From the NCBI RefSeq assembly GCF_019059575.1, contig NW_024881537.1, positions 866,501 to 930,500 of the forward strand: a stretch of 64,000 nucleotides of DNA, read 5' to 3'. Every line of letters starts with the position of its first letter. Position 1 is the stretch's first letter. The stretch comes from Amphibalanus amphitrite. Taxonomy: Eukaryota > Arthropoda > Thecostraca > Balanomorpha > Balanidae. The position numbers and the translations under genes were made by a program. The notes under the pieces are model-generated. The model ran no database searches, had not been told where the DNA came from, and saw only the letters and a list, made by a program, of their open reading frames with translations. Below, piece by piece: positions 4,680 through 63,412 of the stretch.

Positions 4680-4687
4680 TATAAAAG
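4680..4687 (+). promoter_or_regulatory. TATA box of the secreted-protein gene
   Basis: TATAAAAG lies 77 bp upstream of the ATG at 4757, in a GGGGGTATAAAAGTGG context. Transcription would be expected to start near 4710, giving a 5'UTR of about 45-50 nt. TATA boxes with short first exons are typical of highly expressed secreted or cuticular protein genes in arthropods. Confidence 0.7.
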
Positions 4688-4756: not shown

Positions 4757-7700
4757 ATGAAGCGGGTAAGTGATTCAGCAATTTTGTTAGTAGATATTTT
4801 TTCAACCTTCCGTGCCTTCAACCTTCAGAAGACTCGGCGTTCCGCCCTCTAGCATTGCGTGACGTCTGTGCCTCTTACTTCCCCAGTCTCTGTTCCTGTC
4901 CTCTGTTCTCGCCGCGCCCTCGCCTCTATCTGCCGCAATCTCTTCTCGATCTGCTCCCACGTTTTCCTCACGTCCGCTGCAGTCTTTTTTCTCGCTAGCT
5001 GTGCTCTGATCGGTTTTCCTCACGTCTGCCGCAGTCTCTGTTTCTGCTCCCTCTGTTCTGACTCTGTCGTCTGCCGCAGTCTCTGTTTCTGCTCCCTCTA
5101 TTCTGACGCTCACGTCTGCCGCAGTCTCTGTTTCTGCTCCCTCTGTTCTGACTCACGTCTGTCGCAGTCTCTGTTTCTGCTCCCTCTGTTCTGACTCTCA
5201 CGTTTGCCGCAGTCTCTGTTTCTGCTCCCTCTAATCTGACTCTCACGTCTGCCGCAGTCTCTGTTTCTGCTCCCTCTGTTCTGACTCTCACGTCTGCCGC
5301 AGTCTCTGTTTCTGCTCCCTCTGTTCTGACTCTCACGTCAGCCGCAGTCTCTGTTTCTGCTCCCTCTGTTCTGACTCTCTCGTCTGCCGCAGTCTGTGTT
5401 TCTGCTCCCTCTGTTCTGACTCTCTCGTCTGCCGCAGTCTCTGTTTCTGCTCCCTCTGTTCTGACTCTCACGTCTGCCGCAGTCTCTGTTTCTGCTCCCT
5501 CTAATCTGACTCTCACGTCTACCGCAGTCTCTATTTCTGTTCCCTCTGTTCTGACTCTCACGTCTGCCGCAGTCGTTTCTGCTCAGGGGCGGATCCAGGA
5601 ATTTTCGGGAGGGGGGGGGCGGCAAGTTGAAATAGGGGCGACATGGCAATCCGGGGGCGCCAAACCGTCGTCAAAATCGAGAGTTTAAAACCCACGCCGT
5701 GCGTTGTCACGTCCCCCTAGGTTTTTCGCAAATATCTTTAAGACGGCTGCGCGCAGCGCCGCCGTTTTAAAGATAGGTATTTGCGCCCAACCTCTGCTTG
5801 GATCGCCCAATCCGTCATGGGGAGGCTCACTTTGCTGAAGTCGCCTCATTTCTTCTAAGAACGACCAATTTGCTGTAGGCGGCCCACTTATCTGGGACGC
5901 CCATTTTTTTTTTTTTTTTGCTAGAAGTGCCCTTTTTCTTCTTGATGCGTCCCGCTTCTACTGAGAGTGCACCTTTTCTGTTAGGGCACGCCTTTGCTGC
6001 TGGGGAGTCCCTTTTTCTGTACTGTGAATGGGGCGGCCCTTTCCTGTTCGGCGATCCCAAATTCTGCTGGGGGCGCCCCATTTCTGCCCAACTTTTGCTG
6101 GGGTGCCCCTCTCATGCAGGGGCACTTATCTTTTGCTAGAGACGCCTCTTCTGGGGGCGCCCTTCCACTGCGGGGGACGTCTCTCACCTGCCAGAGGCAT
6201 CCCTTTTCTTCTTATGGGGCTCCTCTTTTTGCTTGGGCGCCCCTCTTCTGCTCGGAGCGGGGGCACCACTCTCCTTTTACTGGGGCACAGCCCCTCTCCT
6301 GGGGTTGCCCTTCTGCTGCCTCAGGGGCGCTCCTCTTGTGCATAATATACTCCTTTTCTTCTTGTAATGAGGCGCCCCTCTTCTACCGGGGGCGCCCATC
6401 TGCTGCTGGGGCGTCTGTCTTCTGCCGGATATTGTCAATGGGGCGCCCCTATCCTGCTTGGCGAGCCCAACCCCTGCTGAAGGCTCCCCATCTCTGATCA
6501 ACTTTTGCTGTGGCGCCTCTCTTCTGCTGGGGCGCCCCTCTTCTGCTGAGGGCGCCCCTCTCCTGCAGGGGGCTCCTCTCTTCTGCTGGGGCGCCCCCTT
6601 CGCTGGGGCGCCCGTCTCCTGCTGGAGGCTCCTTTCTCCTGCTGGACCCCCTCCGCTGCCGGGGGCGCCCCTTTTCTGCCAGTGGCACCCATTTTTTATT
6701 ATGGGGCTTCTCTTTTTCTTTGTTGGGGCGCCTATCTGCGGTTAGGGCGCCCCTCTTCTTCTTGGAATGGGGGCGCCTCTCTACTTTTGCTGGGGCGTCG
6801 CTCCTCTTCAGGGGGGCACCTCTCCTGCCAGGAGTGCCCCTCTTGAACAGAAGGCATCTTTTTATTCTTGTAATAAGACGCCCCTCTTCTGCTGGGGGCG
6901 CCCATCTGCTTCTGGGGCGACTCTGATCTGCTGGGAATGGGCAATTGGGCGTCGCTCTCCTGCTTGGTGAGCCCAACTTCTGCTGGAGGCGCCCTATTTC
7001 TGCTCAACCTTTGCTGTGTCGCCTCTGTTTTGCTCGGGGCGCCCTCTCTGCCGCGGGCTATGGGCGCCTTTTTCGGATGTCGGGGGGGGGGGGGGGCGGC
7101 CGCCCCCGTCGCCCCCCTGGATCCGCGCCTGTTTCTGCTCCCTCTGTTCTGACTCTGTCGTCTGCCGCAGTCTCTGTTTCTGCTCCCTCTGTTCTGACTC
7201 TGACGTCTGCCGCAGTCCCTGTTTCTGCTCCCTCTGTTCTGACTCTCAAGTGACGTCTGCCGCAGTCTCTGTTTCTGCTCCCTCTGTTCTGACTCTCACG
7301 TCTGCCGCAGTCTCTGTTTCTGCTCCCTCTGTTCTGACTCTGACGTCTGCCGCAGTCTCTGTTTCTGCTCCCTCTGTTCTGACTCTTCACGTCTGCGGTC
7401 TGCCGCAGTCTCTGTTTCTGCTCCCTCTGTTCTGACGCTCACGTCTGCCGCAGTCTCTGTTTCTGCTCCCCCTGTTCTGACTCTCAAGTGACGTCTGCCG
7501 TAGTCCCTGTTTATGCTCCCTCTGTTCTGACTCTCACGTCTGCCGCAGTCTCTGTTTCTGCTCCCTCTGTTCTGGCTCTGACGTCTGCCGCAGTCCCTGT
7601 TTCTGCTCCCTCTGTGCTGACGCTGACGTCTGCCGCAGTCTCTGTTTCTGCTCTCGCTGCTGGCGTGTGTGGCTCTCTCGCTGGCCCTGCCGGCGCCGGC

Positions 7701-8213
7701 AGCCGAGCACAGCGACGGTGACATCTATTATTCGTCGTACTCGGCACCGGAGGACGACCTGCATGGGGCCGAGTCAGTGGGACTGCTTCAGCTACTCATC
7801 AACAGCAAAATCAACAAGTAAGCATCGTTTACAGACATAATGGGATGAAGTTACACGTTTGCCATGGCTACGATCAAACAATCACTATATGAAATGATCA
7901 TTAACGTAAGCAGATCTCCTTAAATGATCCTCTTTAAAATATTACTCATTTAAACATCATTAGCTTCTTTAGGAACAATATGAATTTAACGTTTAATGCA
8001 TCTTAATTAATTATAAATGAATGAGACATGAGGTTTTAGCACCCATATTTGCTCAATAGCCGACGCAGGCCACACAACTCTACCAAGCGCTGTGAAATGT
8101 GACGGAACCAACACGCCATCTTTTCCAGAGTGCGGTCGCTGCTGTCGTTCCTGCTGCCACGGCCGGCGCCTCACCCACCGCGGCACTACCAGTATCACCA
8201 CCAGCAGTGGTAG
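4757..8213 (+). CDS. Small secreted protein, three exons, about 90 aa, family unknown
   Basis: Exon 1 (4757-4765) encodes only MKR and is followed by GTAAGT. Exon 2 (7639-7817) follows TGCCGCAG, stays in frame, and completes a signal peptide (SLFLLSLLACVALSLALPAPA). An acidic, Tyr/Ser-rich segment (EHSDGDIYYSSYSAPEDD) and an amphipathic stretch (GLLQLLINSKIN) follow, then a GTAAGC donor. Exon 3 starts at 8129 after TTTTCCAG and encodes a basic, Pro/His-rich tail ending HYQYHHQQW with TAG at 8211-8213. GC-rich third positions continue across exons 2 and 3, supporting this frame. Signal cleavage is likely near residue 24-25. I do not recognise the family; a secreted peptide, matrix or cement-type product is possible. 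A shift of 2 nt at the exon 3 acceptor (8130/8131) would instead give a 19-residue repeat protein ending at 8443, with poorer codon bias. Intron 1 carries the decoy acceptor array and a hAT insertion. Confidence 0.72.
4861..5575 (+). repeat. 45-bp minisatellite, upstream array (duplicated intron 1/exon 2 boundary)
   Basis: Each 45-bp unit contains a pyrimidine tract, GTCTGCCGCAG (a 3' splice site) and TCTCTGTTTCTGCTC, which equals the first 15 nt of exon 2 at 7639. Roughly a dozen well-conserved units start near 5019; degenerate ones precede them from about 4861. The period is a multiple of three, which explains the long shadow ORFs on the minus strand (15-residue repeats). Confidence 0.9.
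5584..7131. mobile_element. hAT-like element inserted in the minisatellite, loaded with a GC-rich satellite
   Basis: The terminal repeats are CAGGGGCGGATCCAGG on the left and, on the right, CCTGGATCCGCGCCTG. Perfect 8-bp duplications TTTCTGCT lie at 5576-5583 and 7132-7139, so insertion split one 45-bp unit. The interior (about 5800-7060) is a degenerate tandem array of a roughly 20-bp unit built on CTGCTGGGGCGCCCCTCTT, organised in a higher-order period of about 500 bp (compare 6365 with 6871). The many ORFs here on both strands are translations of the repeat. No transposase. Confidence 0.88.
7132..7638 (+). repeat. 45-bp minisatellite, downstream array ending at the true exon 2 acceptor
   Basis: About eleven further units of the 45-bp repeat; some carry a 4-5 bp insertion before GTCTGCCGCAG. 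The last unit runs straight into exon 2 at 7639, where the sequence after CTGCTC changes from CCTCTGTTCTGA to TCGCTGCTGGCG. The array therefore appears to have expanded from this splice junction. Confidence 0.9.
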
Positions 8214-9384
8214 ACACTAAACAGACAACATCCACCGCGGCACTACCAGTATCACCACCAGCAGTGGTAGACACTAAACAGACAACATCCACCGCGGCAC
8301 TACCAGTATCACCACCAGCAGTGGTAGACACTATAGAGGCAGCATCCACCGCGGCACTACCAGTATCACCAGCAGCAGTGGTAGACACGCCCATATGCGC
8401 TTCTCCACATCACATCACCAATCAACCGACTTTTCTGTGTTAAAGCGTCCATCTCTAGAAGAGATATGAATACGAAGCAATGCTTTTCACCGCTATATCA
8501 CTGCCATGTTACTGTGTTGTACTCAGAAATTGAATGATGATGTGTTCATAAATCGCAACTACATATTGTTGTTCGTCGCTATGCGTCTTGCACATGAAGT
8601 TTGGCGAGTTGGGTGTACCATTTGCTATGCTGTCATAAGTTGTCGTCTGTGGATACTTTTTTATGTCCCTCGTAATTGTGTAATACATGACGGGTAATTG
8701 AAAAGCCAGAATGCCATGTGTTTTGAGTTTGCTTACTATGTCGGGGCACGTTCTTCATTTACTCATATGATTGAATTTCATGGCTAACCACTCATAATTT
8801 TCTATTCGGTGCTAACGTTTGCCCGTAACATGAAGAGTTGTCGAGCTAGAAATTATTTCCGCAAGTCGTCCATGAAATTTGGAAAATATACATCTTTTTC
8901 GCTTGGCTGTTTTTTCGCCCTCTTTCAACATACACTGTCAATATAAAGTGTCTGTGTTCTTTAGTTTTAGAGTTATAATTTTGTTGTCAGGCCATTTTTT
9001 TTTTTTACCAAAATGGCAAAGTTTGTTTCATGCGTTTGTCCCCGGTCTTCGCTCGTCTTTTGCCTCCGGTTCGGTCGGTTATCTAGCCTTGGGTCTTGGT
9101 AACTATTGGCACCATTAGGATTTTTTAAGCTTCATATATGCCACACATCATTTGTGCAGATTGCCGATCTAATTCGTTAGCATTTTAATCTTGGTAGGTA
9201 CGTTTTATTAACTAAAAAAAAAAATGGATAAAAAACAATTCTATTTTAATGCCTTCACAAATGCGAACCACGGAATCATTTATTCAAGATAACATCCTTT
9301 ATTTATCTAGATTTGCGGATGAATTCAAAATGGCTGCCTACATGGCACTGTGACCTTGTGACCTTGGGCTTTGCATTACCTATG
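7725..9384 (+). repeat. Tandem duplication, copy 1 (1660 bp)
   Basis: Starts at CTATTATT (7725-7732) in exon 2 and runs through intron 2, exon 3 and 3' flank to the next CTATTATT at 9385. It is nearly identical to 9385-10986. Confidence 0.92.
8177..8388 (+). repeat. 57-bp minisatellite spanning the stop codon (4 units)
   Basis: The unit starts ACCGCGGCACTACCAG and includes the last codons, the TAG stop and about 16 nt of 3'UTR. There are three full units and one partial unit; the third and fourth carry substitutions. The next copy of the locus (9837 onward) has three units. In the alternative frame the units encode TAALPVSPPAVVDTKQTTS; all substitutions between units would be non-synonymous there, arguing against that frame. 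Confidence 0.9.
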
Positions 9385-9873
9385 CTATTATTCGTCGTAC
9401 TCGGCACCGGAGGACGACCTGCATGGGGCCGAGTCAGTGGGACTGCTTCAGCTGCTCATCAACAGCAAAATCAACAAGTAAGCATCGTTTACAGACATAA
9501 TGGGATGAAGTTACACGTTTGCCATGGCTACGATCAAACAATCACTATATGAAATGATCATTAACGTAAGCAGATCTCCTTAAATGATCCTCTTTAAAAT
9601 ATTACTCATTTAAACATCATTAGCTTCTTTAGGAACAATATGAATTTAACGTTTAATGCATCTTAATTAATTATAAATGAATGAGACATGAGGTTTTAGC
9701 ACCCATATTTGCTCAATAGCCGACGCAGGCCACACAACTCTACCAAGCGCTGTGAAATGTGACGGAACCAACACGCCATCTTTTCCAGAGTGCGGTCGCT
9801 GCTGTCGTTCCTGCTGCCACGGCCGGCGCCTCACCCACCGCGGCACTACCAGTATCACCACCAGCAGTGGTAG
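9385..9873 (+). pseudogene. Duplicated 3' half of the secreted-protein gene (partial exon 2 and exon 3)
   Basis: Partial exon 2 (9385-9477) lacks the signal-peptide start but keeps the reading frame and the GTAAGC donor. Exon 3 (9789-9873) keeps the TTTTCCAG acceptor, all 27 codons and TAG. No promoter, ATG or acceptor was identified for the truncated exon 2. It could serve as an alternative 3' exon for copy 1, since both exon 3 copies are intact, but most simply it is a non-functional by-product of the tandem duplication. Confidence 0.7.
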
Positions 9874-10986
9874 ACACTAAACAGACAACATCCACCGCGG
9901 CACTACCAGTATCACCACCAGCAGTGGTAGACACTAAAGAGACAACATCCACCGCGGCACTACCAGTATCACCACCAGCAGTGGTAGACACGCCCATATG
10001 CGCTTCTCCACATCACATCACCAATCAACCGACTTTTCTGTGTTAAAGCGTCCATCTCTAGAAGAGATATGAATATGAAGCAATGCTTTTCACCGCTATA
10101 TCACTGCCATGTTACTGTGTTGTACTCAGAAATTGAATGATGATGTGTTCATAAATCGCAACTACATATTGTTGTTCGTCGCTATGCGTCTTGCACATGA
10201 AGTTTGGCGAGTTGGGTGTACCATTTGCTATGCTGTCATAAGTTGTCGTCTGTGGATACTTTTTTATGTCCCTCGTAATTGTGTAATACATGACGGGTAA
10301 TTGAAAAGCCAGAATGCCATGTGTTTTGAGTTTGCTTACTATGTCGGGGCACGTTCTTCATTTACTCATATGATTGAATTTCATGGCTAACCACTCATAA
10401 TTTTCTATTCGGTGCTAACGTTTGCCCGTAACATGAAGAGTTGTCGAGCTAGAAATTATTTCCGCAAGTCGTCCATGAAATTTGGAAAATATACATCTTT
10501 TTCGCTTGGCTGTTTTTTCGCCCTCTTTCAACATACGCTGTCAATATAAAGTGTCTGTGTTCTTTAGTTTTAGAGTTATAATTTTGTTGTCAGGCCATTT
10601 TTTTTTTACCAAAATGGCAAAGTTTGTTTCATGCGTTTGTCCCCGGTCTTCGCTCGTCTTTTGCCTCCGGTTCGGTCGGTTATCTAGCCTTGGGTCTTGG
10701 TAACTATTGGCACCATTAGGATTTTTTAAGCTTCATATATGCCACACATCATTTGTGCAGATTGCCGATCTAATTCGTTAGCATTTTAATCTTGGTAGGT
10801 ACGTTTTATTAACTAAAAAAAAAAAATGGATAAAAAACAATTCTATTTTAATGCCTTCACAAATGCGAACCACGGAATCATTTATTCAAGATAACATCCT
10901 TTATTTATCTAGATTTGCGGATGAATTCAAAATGGCTGCCTACATGGCACTGTGACCTTGTGACCTTGGGCTTTGCATTACCTATG
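9385..10986 (+). repeat. Tandem duplication, copy 2 (1602 bp)
   Basis: The 58-bp length difference from copy 1 is exactly one 57-bp unit less, two fewer T in a T-run and one more A in an A-run. Very few substitutions are seen (e.g. near 9453, 10075 and 10537), so the duplication is recent. It ends at a third CTATTATT (10987-10994), which overlaps the target duplication of the following hAT element. Confidence 0.92.
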
Positions 10987-11165
10987 CTATTATTTGGGCA
11001 TTAGCGTCGCCACGGGGGGGGGGGGGGCAAGCGGGGCAGCTTGCCCCCCCAACCTCGGACCGGGCACCCCCTGAGATCGATACAGATCCGATGAGATTTG
11101 GGAGTCGGGAAAAAATGGGGGTACCTTTCTGAGAATGCCTGTGATGTGAGGTCAGACTCGGTTAA

Positions 11166-20606: not shown

Positions 20607-21415
20607 TCGATTAACCGCTGTACTTCTTTGACATGCATTTTATTTATTTTTTTTTTTTAATCAGAACTGTGGGTTATCAACCCGTGCCGGAAAGCAGTGC
20701 AGAAAAGATCACGTGCAATGTTTCCTGCACGGCTAGGACAATGCTTAAGGGATATCTCGGCGTATGGAAATATTCCAGTTGAATTAATAATTGACACGGA
20801 TTAGATATTTTTTCAAAATCACGAAGATCACAAAACCCTCGCAAGTTCAGCTTTACTTACTTACATAATGAATCAATATGATCGCCTTTTTGGTCACATT
20901 TTCCCCACACTCAAAACCGACAGAAATGCCTGAAATTTGGTAACGTTAGAACTCAAAATAGCCATGTGTTTCAATTCACGACAAACATAGGCGGCGGAAG
21001 GCGGAACGGGGAGGGCACCGGGGCACCGTGATCCGTGACCCCTTTGATTTTTACATTCTAACATTAGCCCTATCTATGGGGGTTGCGTGGAAAGAATGGG
21101 ACCAAAAGTCGGCAGTGCCCCCCGCCCCTTAATTGAAAGTGTTCGACCGCCTCTGGGGACAAACGAGGGTGGGGCGGGTCCCAGAAATGTGTGGAAGTCC
21201 GTCAGCTAGTCTGGACAAACCGACGCCAAATGTCGACCGCTCATTGGTCAATACCGTAACCACGTGGCCGCAGTCGATGCGGCAGTCGGGAGGGGTCCGG
21301 TGGGCGGGGTCCGGCGGGGGAGGGGAGGAGAGGGGAGTCGCCACCACGGAGAGGTCATCACTCGGCCTGAGGCGGTCCGCAAGTGGTGTCGGCAGCGGAG
21401 CAGGAACACATCGTC
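20607..21415. other. Upstream and 5'UTR region of the beta-tubulin exon
   Basis: No TATA box is seen near the ATG. 21270-21415 is GC-rich with purine runs (GGGGGAGGGGAGGAGAGGGG) and would include the 5'UTR. The ORFs in 21129-21552 are shadows except the in-frame run into the tubulin ATG. Confidence 0.45.
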
Positions 21416-21472
21416 ATGAGGGAGATTGTCCACCTTCAGGCCGGGCAGTGCGGCAACCAGATAGGATCCAAG
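21416..21472 (+). CDS. Beta-tubulin, first coding exon (partial gene)
   Basis: ATG starts a 19-codon reading frame MREIVHLQAGQCGNQIGSK, the hallmark N-terminus of beta-tubulin (alpha-tubulin starts MREC). The exon ends exactly where animal beta-tubulin genes commonly have their first intron, at AAG followed by GTGAGA. QAGQCGNQIG forms part of the nucleotide-binding T1 region, and the MREI tetrapeptide is the known co-translational autoregulation signal of tubulin mRNAs. Position 18 is Ser where most have Ala. The next exon (normally starting FWEVI) was not recognised anywhere downstream, so the gene must continue beyond the window across a very long, transposon-filled intron, or this is an orphaned exon. 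Confidence 0.88.
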
Positions 21473-22413
21473 GTGAGAGACACACCGGCACCCGGCCACT
21501 CCATGGGTATACCTATCGGCTCGGGTGCTCGGCTGTTGAAACCAAGGTGTAAAAATGTGGAGGTATCGTTTCGACGTAAATAGTTACACATGCTAAGTGC
21601 GTCTATGCATCGATAATTGATATACAGCTGAATCACCCATGCCCTCCTTGTATCGATCGTGCTGGTTTCCCTATTTAAAAGGATAAACATATTCGTTGAG
21701 CCATTGTACAGCTTTATGCACCTCACGTAGGTACATATGTACGTGTGCGGGTCATTTAACCGGTTTGTGTACCTACATGTGTGTCGGATATTGGGGACGC
21801 CATGACACGGGTCGGAGGGGCGGTCAGACGGGACATTTGCAGAGGGGCACACACGCCAGTCACCCTGCCATTCGGCCCAGTCCGGTCAGCGTAACAGCGG
21901 CCCTGCACGGCTCCGCATGGTGCTTGATACTGCACACCATAGTGCACAGTGCAGAGCACACCCTGCACAGCACACAGTGCATAGCAGACGGTGAAGAAGT
22001 AGAGGCATCGTCGCGATGTTTTTTTTTTAATATTATTCAAGCTTAAACACTAAGGTAACATAGTCCAGACATGTTATCCAAATCGGCAAATCAGTAATTT
22101 AATCCGGTAGAGTCAATTTGTAGCTCACCAAAAATTGACGAAAAAACATCGACGACGGTGGCGCTAACCTATAAAGAAGCGTTTTGCTCTTCATACGGTT
22201 CAATGAGTATTCATCACTGCTGTGTCAAGTTCTTACATATGACGCATTATGTGACACTGGTAATCGCGTCATAAGCGCCATTCAGACGTGGAAACCTGTT
22301 GCCATTCGGCCCAATCGATCATGCTTGCATGGGTTCAGCAGACGACTAGAAAACTGACTACAATTAGTATCATCTCAAGACTAATTTCATGACCAACAAG
22401 TTTCATAATGCTC
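21473..22413 (+). other. Start of tubulin intron 1, single-copy
   Basis: Begins GTGAGAGACACACC. No coding exon or known RNA was found. A repeated GTGCACAGTGCAGAGCACACC-like palindromic stretch lies at about 21940-21985. Confidence 0.45.
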
Positions 22414-34375: not shown

Positions 34376-36404
34376 CACTGGCGGATCCAGGGTTTCAGCG
34401 TGGGGGGGGCATACCAGGTCACGGAGCCAAACCTAGGGTACCCCCAAATCCTGTTTTCTCATCGGATTTAGACCACTTATTTTTCGTCATAGCCCTGACA
34501 CGAGTTTTTTTCTAAAAAACACACAGAGAAATGGTAGGACACCTGACCCCCATTGGCAGATCCAGGAGGAGGAGGCTTTTGGGACAAATACCCGGGCAGC
34601 GCCAGAAATCGACGAAAATTGGTGGGGCCGGTGGGCCCTCAGAATGACTGGTGTATAGAGCCGACCCAGGGCTGCCGGTGTGGAACCTTAAGAGGTACTG
34701 GCGTGGAACCATCAAAGGTATCGGTGTGGGTTCCCTCGAAGCAGTGGTGTGGGGCCCTCAGAGGCACTGGTGCAGGAACCACAAAGGAACCGGTGTGGGC
34801 CCTCTAAGGTGCTGGTGTGAGGCCCTCACATGGACGCCGTTGTGGTGCCTCAGACACTGGTGTGGCGCTAAGCCCACACCATTCACAGATGGCTGTGTTT
34901 GGGGCCCTTGGAGTTGTTGGTGCGAAATGCGAATGCTTAATAACCCAGTAGGACCTCTCAGAGACCGACAAAGGGCCCTCAGAGGCCGGTAACGGGCCGT
35001 ATGATGCCAACAATGGGCCTTCACAGGCCCGCGGCAAGTGAGGGCCGGCAGTATCTTCAGGAGCCCTGTGGAGTCCTTAGAGATCGGCATGGTACTCTCA
35101 GACGCCGGTGGGGCCCTCAGAGTCACCGGTGTAGGACCTACAGAGTTACCGGTGGCTGGCTGCCAGAGGCACTGGTGTGGGGCCCCAGAGGCGCCGGTGT
35201 GGGACCCTCAGAGTCGCCGATGTGGGGCCTCAGGAGACACTGGTGTCTCAGAGGTGGCGGTGTAGGGCCCTCAGACGTGTCTGTGTGGTGCCCTCACAGT
35301 CGCCGGTGAAGACTTTCAAAGGCATCGTTGTGGGAGTCCTCACTCCTCAGAGGCACATGCATGGGGGCAAGGGGAGACCAGCAAGGGCCAGCAGAGGCCT
35401 TCAGGAGCCCTGTTGGATCCTGGAGACCGGCGTGGTACTCTCAGGCGTCACTGGGAGCACTCAGAGTCACCAGTGTGGGGCCCACAGAGTTGCAGGTAGG
35501 TAGCCGTCAGATGCGCCTGTGTAAAACCTTCAGAGGCGCCAGTGTGGGGCCCTCAGAGCCGCCGCCGATGCAGGGCCTTAAGAAATATTGGTGTTAGTCC
35601 CTCAGATTGGCGGTGTTTGGCCCTCAAAGGCGCCGGTGTGAGACCCTCACAGGCGCCGTTATGGGCCCTCAGAGACACTGGTGTGGAGCCGTTCCATGCG
35701 GATATGGGCCTGGACCCTAATTAGAGCTGACGCTTAATAGGTCAGCAAGGTCACTCAGAGGCCAGCTCAGGGCCCTCAGAAGCCAGAGTGGGGCTCTTAT
35801 GGAGATGTGTGATGTGTGGCGACTCAGGAGCCCGTGACTACGTGAGGTGCTCTCACGAGTCCTGCGGGTCTTATCTCAGTCGAAATAAGGCACGCTTGGA
35901 CCCTGAGCGGCCAATTGGCACTGCAGGGCCTCTCGGGCCCATAGGGCACCATGCATCTAATGAGGCGGCACGCGCCCCTTGTGCCCCCCCCCCCCCCCGG
36001 TTACGCTGCAGTGGCTGCGGCCATACAGGTAAATCATATTCTAATCGTCCCTATTCCCAAGCATAGGCGGCGGCCGATTCCTGGTTTGCGCAATATGAGT
36101 GCCATCGTTAGACAATACGGTCAAAAGGGTGAAGCGGCATGACTCCCCTGTGGTAAGAACTAAGAAGCAACATATTCTTAAACAAAATAAAGCGATGACA
36201 ACTAAATAGAGGTTACTAAAACGACTCTAATCACAAAAGTAGTTACTAGGAAGGCTTTCTAATCCATTTTTATTTAGTTCCTCGTTACGTAAGAAGTGAA
36301 AGTCTGAACGGGGGGGGGCATACTTGTACTGAATGCCCTCCCCAGGCTCCTGTCGAGGGGGGCATATGCCCCTAATGCCCCCCCCCCCCCTGGATCCGCC
36401 AGTG
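34376..36404. mobile_element. hAT-like element carrying a GGCCCTCAGAGG minisatellite (2029 bp)
   Basis: Perfect terminal repeats CACTGGCGGATCCAGGG / CCCTGGATCCGCCAGTG and perfect 8-bp duplications GCCACCCC (34368-34375, 36405-36412). A second, weaker CATTGGCAGATCCAGG at about 34549 suggests a nested relative. Related in its GGCGGATCCAGG termini to the element at 5584. Confidence 0.9.
34640..35790 (+). repeat. GC-rich minisatellite, unit about 30 bp
   Basis: Dozens of degenerate units of the type GGCCCTCAGAGGCGCCGGTG with GTGTG between them. The ORFs across this interval on both strands are repeat translations with no domain. Confidence 0.85.
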
Positions 36405-61932: not shown

Positions 61933-62045
61933 AATAGACGAATGATTCAACATTTTCTTTGAAAATTTATTTTCTTTGAAAATATAAATACAAATATACT
62001 AGGGCATGCCTAATTGGCGCTGAGTCGTTTGGACGTTGTGTTTCA
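61933..62045 (+). other. Distal part of the 5' intron of the sulfotransferase gene
   Basis: AT-rich sequence ends in a TTGTGTTTCAG acceptor immediately before the GC-rich exon; the donor and first non-coding exon are not identified. Confidence 0.5.
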
Positions 62046-62095
62046 GGGCCGGTGACACTGTTCGGCCGCCGGGCCACTCGGAGGAGCAGTGCACC

Positions 62096-63205
62096 ATGCG
62101 GCCGTGGCCGGGGTCGCCGCGCGCTCCGGCGGCCGTCGCTGCCGGTCTGTGCGGCTGCTGCCTGCTGCTGCTGGCCGGCACCCGCCTGCCGCTGCGGCCG
62201 GTCCCGGTCGGAGCACCGCCGCCCCTGGAGGACTCTGGACGCGTGCTCGGCCGGCCGGTGACGGAGCTGTGGTCCGCCAGCCGGCCCGAGCAGGCCTGGT
62301 TCACCGACGACCAGTGCCGGCCGCTGGTCAGCCGGTTCACCCGCGACCAGTGTCTGCCGCTCGTCTACCTGGCGTCGTTCCCCAGGTCGGGCAACACGTG
62401 GACACGGTACCTGCTGGAGGCCTCCACTGGGCTCATCACAGGCGGTAGCTCAATGCCTAACTACCGCCAGTACAAAGCACACGCGTTCACGGAGCGGCTC
62501 TCAGACGAGAACCTCTGGAAGTATGTAAACCGTCAGGGCCAGATGGTCCGTCTGGGATATTTGGGTGGGTCCATACCCTGGTCGGTAGGAGCCACAATCG
62601 TCACCAAGACCCACGCCTGGCCAGAACCATTTACCGAAGAAGAGACAGCAATCGTAAACAAAACAAGCCACAAGTTCTCACCGTTCCCTAAAAATGTTAC
62701 GCGGCGTGCTATTCTGATTATCCGTGATCCTTTCAAGTCATTCATCTCTTTGAAAAAGTACGGCAAGACCAAATCGGTGTTGAACGAGGACGACATGAGC
62801 GAGCTGTTCACGGGCGCCGCCTGGGAGAAGTTCGCCGTGGCCTACGGACGCGTATGGCTCGAGATGAACGCCCGATGGATCGCCAACACGGAGCAGCTGC
62901 ACGTGGTGACCTACGAGCGTCTGACGCAGGACACGATGGCCGAGCTGCGCTCGATGCTGCAGTTCCTGGACGTGCAGCCGGACCGGCGCCGGCTGCAGTG
63001 TGTCGCCGGCGCGCTGGAGGGTCGCGCGCACAACCACCGACACGGCGTGGTGCCGAACGAGCAGACGTACCCGCTGCCGTTGCGCTCCAAGGTGTGGCTC
63101 AACATCCACCAGCTCGACTGGCTGCTACGGCAGCGCGGCTTCCCCGGCCTCCCGCTGGAGCGGTACTCCTTCGCCGACGAATTCGGAGACCTGATGGAGG
63201 CGTGA
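62096..63205 (+). CDS. WSCD-family sulfotransferase, type II membrane protein, 369 aa
   Basis: Golgi sulfotransferases of this family use PAPS to sulfate glycans; vertebrate WSCD proteins act on sialic acid, but the substrate here is unknown. Translation starts at ATG 62096 (context GTGCACCATGC); the frame is open upstream only into the TTTCAG acceptor at 62045. Residues 1-13 are short and cytosolic; about 12-30 form a signal anchor (AAVAAGLCGCCLLLLAG). The 5'-phosphosulfate loop is LASFPRSGNTWTRYLLE (92-108); the 3'-phosphate motif is AILIIRDPFKSFISL (205-219). N-glycosylation sequons lie at 188 (NKT) and 200 (NVT). The WSC domains of vertebrate relatives are absent, as in short insect members. 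An internal 12-residue repeat (FTDDQCRPLVSR/FTRDQCLPLVYL) precedes the loop. The coding region is a single exon, GC-rich, intact to TGA. Confidence 0.88.
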   Translation: MRPWPGSPRAPAAVAAGLCGCCLLLLAGTRLPLRPVPVGAPPPLEDSGRVLGRPVTELWSASRPEQAWFTDDQCRPLVSRFTRDQCLPLVYLASFPRSGNTWTRYLLEASTGLITGGSSMPNYRQYKAHAFTERLSDENLWKYVNRQGQMVRLGYLGGSIPWSVGATIVTKTHAWPEPFTEEETAIVNKTSHKFSPFPKNVTRRAILIIRDPFKSFISLKKYGKTKSVLNEDDMSELFTGAAWEKFAVAYGRVWLEMNARWIANTEQLHVVTYERLTQDTMAELRSMLQFLDVQPDRRRLQCVAGALEGRAHNHRHGVVPNEQTYPLPLRSKVWLNIHQLDWLLRQRGFPGLPLERYSFADEFGDLMEA

Positions 63206-63412
63206 TGGAGGCCTGATGGAGGCGTGATTGAGGCATGATTGAGGCGTGATTGAGGCCTGATGGAGGCTTGTAGGAGGCGTGAGCCGGAGGTGTGATTGAG
63301 GCGTGATTGAGGCGTGATTGAGGCCTGATGGAAGCCTGATAAAGGCGTGAGGGAGGTGTGTTCGGAGGCTCGATGGAGGCTTGCTAGAAGCGCGAGGGGA
63401 GGCGTGATGGGG
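63196..63412 (+). repeat. 12-bp minisatellite starting in the last codons of the sulfotransferase
   Basis: About 17 degenerate units of GAGGCGTGATTG/GAGGCCTGATGG follow without break from the terminal CTGATGGAGGCGTGA. The stop codon lies in the first unit, so the repeat is 3'UTR. Confidence 0.88.

Follow-up and report, generated by a model that had tools for sequence, protein, structure and literature searches.

The window, by which we mean the whole 64,000-nucleotide stretch of DNA analyzed, harbors a pancrustacean arthropod gene predicted to encode a small secreted protein, and the first intron of this gene holds a 45-bp tandem array interrupted by a mobile element (Table 1). Joining 4765, at the end of exon 1, to 7639, and continuing in exon 3 from 8129 after a second intron of 311 nt, gives a predicted product of 90 amino acids with a signal-peptide-like start (MKRSLFLLSLLACVALSLALPAPAAEHSDGDIYYSSYSAPEDDLHGAESVGLLQLLINSKINKVRSLLSFLLPRPAPHPPRHYQYHHQQW). 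Past the signal region its charge runs from acidic (-6, residues 25 to 47) to basic (+4, residues 48 to 90), a course seen in many small secreted precursors. Counted over both strands, the window has 7,067 AGs. Of these, 630 are followed by 59 open codons, and at two of the 630, one being the acceptor at 7638, the open codons also begin with 16 strongly hydrophobic residues.

Table 1. Features of the predicted gene, its intronic array and its 3′ flank (positions in the window)
Feature	Coordinates	Strand	Remarks
TATA box, TATAAAAG	4680..4687	+	77 bases 5′ of the start codon; read from sequence
Exon 1, coding part, ATGAAGCGG (MKR)	4757..4765	+	Followed by donor GTAAGT at 4766
Predicted intron 1	4766..7638	+	2,873 nt
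Degenerate 5′ edge of array	4861..5018	+	In-register sites 4886 (AG), 4938 (AG lost), 4982 (AG)
Left half of array	5019..5583	+	13 core decoys, from Tandem Repeats Finder and site register; decoys end at 5034, 5079, 5124, 5167, 5212, 5257, 5302, 5347, 5392, 5437, 5482, 5527, 5572
Target duplication, left copy, TTTCTGCT	5576..5583	+	8 bp; 8/8 match with right copy
Inserted mobile element	5584..7131	+	1,548 bp; terminal inverted repeats CAGGGGCGGATCCAGG / CCTGGATCCGCGCCTG
Target duplication, right copy	7132..7139	+	8 bp
Right half of array	7132..7593	+	10 core decoys; spacings 45, 50, 53 nt; decoys end at 7170, 7215, 7265, 7310, 7355, 7408, 7453, 7503, 7548, 7593
Last 45-bp unit with predicted real acceptor	7594..7638	+	Ends CTGACGCTGACGTCTGCCGCAG; CTGACGTCTGCCGCAG directly 5′ of 7639
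Exon 2	7639..7817	+	179 nt; predicted to encode the remainder of the signal peptide and the first part of the mature protein; GTAAGC donor at 7818
Exon 3, coding part to TAG stop (8211-8213)	8129..8213	+	Acceptor TTTTCCAG ending at 8128
57-bp minisatellite across the stop codon of the gene	8175..8388	+	3.8 copies; 2.8 in the downstream duplicate
Tandem duplicate of 7725-9392	9385..10994	+	3′ half of exon 2, intron 2, exon 3 and flank; ~99% identical

Support for the gene model

We consider it unlikely that the exon 1-exon 2 model is wrong or the gene dead, in which case the array would be an ordinary minisatellite with an open frame beyond its end by coincidence. Such a reading would fit a protein that falls into no recognizable family: Pfam gave no match above the cut-off for the 90 amino acids (four weak ones, best E value 0.046), and six PDB sequences at E values of 0.049 to 0.055, all named Orf20, were taken as chance. 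It would also fit the poly(A) motifs found between 8213 and 11000, where a search returned AATATA only, with neither AATAAA nor ATTAAA, and the position of the 3′ half of the gene inside a recent tandem duplication. These points are opposed by the TATA box, the short leader, a first donor that matches the consensus, and an MKR that reads in frame into a hydrophobic core, as well as by the plausible donor and acceptor of intron 2 and the 90-residue frame.

The duplication bears on the same question. The two copies, joined at CTATTATT, are identical at 605/607 and 1155/1165 positions. Within the exon 2 coding sequence that they share, the single difference is a synonymous one, CTA to CTG, and their exon 3 coding parts do not differ; this speaks against a dead gene, with almost no power. 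Neither Rfam (at gathering scores) nor ARAGORN (with the bacterial code) returned anything in the window.

Architecture of the array

The 45-bp unit joins the end of intron 1, which has a branch-point-like CTGAC and a TGCCGCAG acceptor, to the 15 nt with which exon 2 opens. In the consensus, CTGACTCTCACGTCTGCCGCAG is followed by TCTCTGTTTCTGCTC, which corresponds to these 15 nt, and then by CCTCTGTTCTGA, which stops the frame. The locus thus carries a boundary-spanning tandem repeat, intron end and exon start together, beside the predicted real boundary. Tandem Repeats Finder reported it at period 45 from 5019 to 5574 (12.4 copies, 93% matches) and from 7129 to 7653 (11.3 copies, 87% matches). 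Counting the predicted real acceptor at 7638, there are 27 in-register sites, and the AG is kept in 26 of them, having been lost at 4938. Upstream of the real acceptor lie 23 core decoys (5034-7593, all with AG), two intact degenerate sites and the lost one, so that 25 of the 26 upstream sites keep the AG. The sites of the 5′ edge have 7 to 9 mismatches in 26 nt and the core units are alike: over 26 nt (-11 to +15), 14 of the 23 core decoys match the real site at every position, and in 17 the 15 nt at the start of exon 2 are reproduced exactly. Each core decoy has its own branch-point-like motif. A yTnAy motif occurs within 45 nt upstream of every intact site, at 4886 only 10 nt away, which is easily satisfied in such sequence.

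A sequence-only reading of this DNA had described 4861 to 7638 as one minisatellite whose unit repeats the pyrimidine tract, the acceptor and 15 nt from the start of exon 2, placing more than 20 decoy acceptors in front of that exon. Unit and number hold. The extent has to be corrected, since 5584-7131, 56% of the interval, is a mobile element that splits the array, leaving 13 core decoys upstream and 10 downstream. The same reading had predicted that splicing exon 1 to a decoy would yield MKRSLFLLPLF and then a stop, and that the last acceptor alone would give the full secreted protein. That exact product is encoded at 15 of the 23 core decoys and close variants of 11 to 13 amino acids at seven; decoy 5572 gives 23 amino acids because its frame enters the inserted element. 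The full 90-residue secreted protein is predicted only from the acceptor before 7639.

We searched the 807.55-Mb genome for a 35-base core of the unit, allowing up to 3 mismatches, with counts that are lower bounds. At least 18 matches were found, all inside the array; there were none on the other strand in this genome at this threshold, and none for a reversed control. Gene body and unit matched only this locus in the genome, which thus gave no second allele for a comparison of lengths.

Two known arrangements of serial acceptors were considered and rejected. Recursive (ratcheting) splicing needs AG|GT, and all 23 core decoys read AG|TC. NAGNAG tandem acceptors are 3 nt apart and share one branch point, and the core spacing here is 43 to 53 nt within halves.

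It is very improbable that either strand of the array encodes a protein of 15-residue repeats. Forty-five is divisible by three, two of the three frames of the consensus unit are free of stops on each strand, and a minus-strand ORF of 188 amino acids covers the left half (4995-5561). This ORF, however, shifts repeat register partway, spacings of 43, 50, 50 and 53 nt break the frame repeatedly, which argues that the array is not coding, and nothing favors in-frame indels.

The array probably arose by tandem duplication of a segment that comprised the end of intron 1 and the start of exon 2. Exchange between units may then have kept them alike, a step not demonstrated by the unit identities, which average 0.896 in the left half, 0.886 in the right half and 0.882 between halves. 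Because units are as alike between halves as within them, the mobile element was probably inserted recently relative to array turnover. Without this element and one target duplication, intron 1 would measure 1,317 nt; with one unit and no element it would measure 306 nt, and removal of the 158-nt degenerate edge as well leaves, by arithmetic, ~148 nt.

The ends of the inserted element are inverted (16 nt at 94%), and its 8-bp duplication suggests the hAT superfamily, to which we presume that it belongs. No transposase was seen. Full-length matches elsewhere in the genome number at least 32, at 94-97% (40 of 1,348 candidates scored). A relative, a second hAT-like element, lies at 34376-36404 in the window; its ends are CACTGGCGGATCCAGG, its 8-bp duplication, GCCACCCC, is perfect, and it contains 23-bp GC-rich tandem repeats. 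Minisatellites of 20 bp, of the GGGGCACCACCGGCCTGGCA type, adjoin ends like those of the inserted element or lie between them at L051 (6002-6740) and L059 (6683-7417), so this transposon family may carry tandem repeats of its own.

Local signals do not single out the last acceptor

Local signals do not favor the real acceptor. Among the 17 positions from -20 to -4 it has 9 pyrimidines; of the 25 intact upstream sites, 23 have more and two have the same number.

RNA structure that would hide the decoys was also considered and is rejected. In predicted folds the AG was unpaired at values of 0.002-0.19 for the 23 core decoys versus 0.008 for the real site, with no separation between them. The AGs of the array are paired as a class: their mean unpaired value was 0.009 and 0.016 in the two halves versus 0.076 and 0.072 in dinucleotide shuffles, and none of 100 shuffles per half was as low, a statistic in which sites are not independent because the units repeat. 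The pairing partners are diffuse, and decoy and real AGs are occluded alike.

The real acceptor does differ on its exon side, which counts for its use. Purines make up 39% of the 100 nt that follow it, whereas the figure is 22-31% for all but two of the 25 intact upstream sites, the exceptions being 5527 (44%) and 5572 (60%), which run into the element. The exon 2 donor, moreover, is only 179 nt away. Passages of a study of human ESTs (Carranza et al. 2022, PMC9225289) state that 3′ splice sites at least 20 nt apart are discriminated at first recognition and that upstream ones are generally preferred. For sites of like strength, this upstream preference was significantly reduced where both flanking introns exceeded 250 nt, and the authors conclude that long flanking introns favor the sites closest across the exon (PMC9225289). 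With introns of 2,873 and 311 nt, exon 2 falls in the long/long class of that study, in which the preference, in human data, is reduced and not plainly reversed (PMC9225289). The last acceptor is thus likely used. This use would not be exclusive, since the preference is reduced rather than reversed and 25 intact competitors are present, and for the former reason decoy use could be substantial. Splicing to the nearest decoy, at 7593, would extend exon 2 by only 45 nt, which exon definition should tolerate.

A tolerated array is the favored explanation

With moderate confidence, we favor the explanation that the array is a "mirage"-type, boundary-spanning minisatellite in intron 1 that is tolerated, the last acceptor being chosen mainly by exon definition and any leakage to the decoys giving stop-bearing mRNAs. 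Intron 1 being now 2.9 kb long, exon 2 would be recognized across the exon, from the donor at 7818 to the nearest acceptor, and for this reason the spliceosome would mostly take the last one. Use of 22 of the 23 core decoys would produce an mRNA that stops after 11 to 13 codons. These stops lie upstream of the predicted exon 2-exon 3 junction, which, on the predicted gene model, is the sequence arrangement of a nonsense-mediated decay switch, an early stop before a later junction. The decoy products are likely targets of nonsense-mediated decay, which would argue that the array is tolerated rather than selected for, possibly at a cost to output that depends on its length.

A rather unlikely alternative is that the array works as a rheostat: the decoys would attract a considerable part of splicing, the mRNAs that carry their stops would be destroyed and array length would set protein output. 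It draws on the same local signals, equal or stronger at the decoys than at the real acceptor, and on the order of transcription, as decoys are made first and human data generally prefer the upstream 3′ site (according to passages of PMC9225289). Against it stands a permutation test over 22 units and 45 columns, with 5572 and the terminal unit excluded. The AG columns showed 0 mismatches versus 2.04 expected (P 0.17) and are not significantly conserved, so that selection on the decoy acceptors finds no support. A low count was seen only in the 15 exonic nt of the unit, with 7 mismatches versus 15.3 expected (P 0.03, one of four tests, uncorrected). That the genome yielded no second allele also counts against the rheostat.

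The background of minisatellites points toward tolerance as well. Tandem Repeats Finder, run on 20 stretches of 10 kb chosen by position, found 9 distinct arrays (11 rows) with periods of 20-120 and at least 5 copies, or about one per 22 kb, four of the nine being in a single stretch. In a genome so rich in minisatellites, some should overlap splice sites by chance. This rate, together with two more arrays at reading-frame ends, favors mutation and tolerance over design. The sequence-only reading had proposed that array length could tune output or that the gene may depend on strict use of the terminal acceptor; the latter appears to be the likelier half on this analysis, and length-dependent tuning of output by the array is plausible.

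The array could also have silenced its own decoys by growing, if added units, and then the transposon, lengthened intron 1 past the switch from intron to exon definition, which a passage of PMC9225289 puts at roughly 250 nt. We regard this as quite improbable. Were it true, a short array would favor the first decoy and kill output, a long one would restore the last acceptor, and the relation of copy number to expression would be non-monotonic.

Known boundary-spanning minisatellites

Tolerance and tuning both have precedents, the former in lancelet genes and the latter in human ABCA7. Passages of two papers describe "mirage" minisatellites in the lancelet genes Adh3, the globins BflGb6 and BflGb9, TnC and PGBD5 (PMC3087553, PMC3902484): the first reports minisatellite-like duplications in the globin genes under a name taken from Adh3, and the second adds TnC and PGBD5. 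The BflGb6 repeat joins the 3′ end of an intron to the 5′ portion of exon 2 and was present as 6 units in one haplotype and 3 in another. Going by Adh3 and by RT-PCR of their own, the authors suggest that such repeats leave regular splicing undisturbed (PMC3087553), which argues against the rheostat. Our locus resembles BflGb6 in its tandem exon-intron boundary with splice signals in many units, and differs in having a unit of 45 bp instead of 150-160 bp and 23 core decoys instead of 6 and 3 units (PMC3087553). It further differs in host (a pancrustacean rather than a lancelet), in having a stop in the frame of nearly every unit and in the transposon inside the array. In the lancelet, RT-PCR was used to examine splicing (PMC3087553), whereas the choice of acceptor here is predicted from DNA.

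The rheostat has its precedent in ABCA7 intron 18, where, according to a passage of PMC5954066, a VNTR with a 25-bp unit opens with the exon 18 donor and counts 23.7 units in the reference. The longer this VNTR, the lower the expression, and an isoform that retains a single unit runs into a premature stop (PMC5954066). In both genes a minisatellite includes the splice site of the exon that it adjoins, and splicing at a different copy leads (ABCA7) or would lead (here) to a premature stop; in ABCA7 the exon-adjacent copy of the repeated donor is canonical, as the exon-adjacent acceptor is predicted to be real here (PMC5954066). ABCA7 repeats a donor in a 25-bp unit and our locus an acceptor in a 45-bp unit, and the length polymorphism and correlation with expression belong to ABCA7 (PMC5954066), whereas we have the sequence of one allele.

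Among the open-licence papers listed, in a survey that took in crustaceans, no further acceptor array was found, by which we do not claim that none is in print. In the human interferon-induced gene 6-16 (IFI6), minisatellite units beside a coding exon are each said to resemble a splice donor; these units are reportedly short and on the donor side, unlike the acceptor array described here.

The locus belongs to an already named kind, the mirage minisatellite; it adds a good example to that kind and does not represent a phenomenon of its own. Its presence in a pancrustacean suggests that mirage-type arrays are not a lancelet peculiarity. It amounts to a natural competition experiment, in which about two dozen acceptors stand in series and the last, the only useful one, is matched exactly over 26 nt by 14 of the 23 core decoys. 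It could reveal whether position relative to the exon, and not local strength, decides the acceptor in an arthropod, and whether the copy number of a boundary-spanning minisatellite sets expression.

Other observations in the window and genome

A sulfotransferase ORF at 62036-63410 (PF00685, E value 1.2e-11) has its stop codon inside an 11-bp array of 19.5 copies. A search for a second haplotype through this ORF returned the ORF itself at 100% and then paralogs at up to 84% across the genome. The placement of the host among pancrustaceans draws on contig C2644 (15,683 bp), which, with its genes named by visual inspection, looks like a mitochondrial genome carrying cox1, tRNA-Leu(TAA) and cox2 in this order, an arrangement that marks Pancrustacea. 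It also draws on the cuticle domain PF00379, which had at least 150 genome matches over the cut-off (150 of 705 candidates scored) and none in 14 control genomes. Clusters of this domain occur in pairs with equal scores on contigs C8/C391, C160/C461, C180/C431 and C35/C315, as if the assembly had kept both haplotypes in places; none was found at the array locus.

At 21383-21583 lies what we take to be the start of a beta-tubulin-like frame (MREIVHLQAGQCGNQIGSK); 14 other tubulin words were sought across the window, and none turned up. Half sites of the GGTCA type (AGGTCA, TTGACC) occur in many short tandem repeats, for example, at 1844, 2776, 31295, 32473 and 51641.
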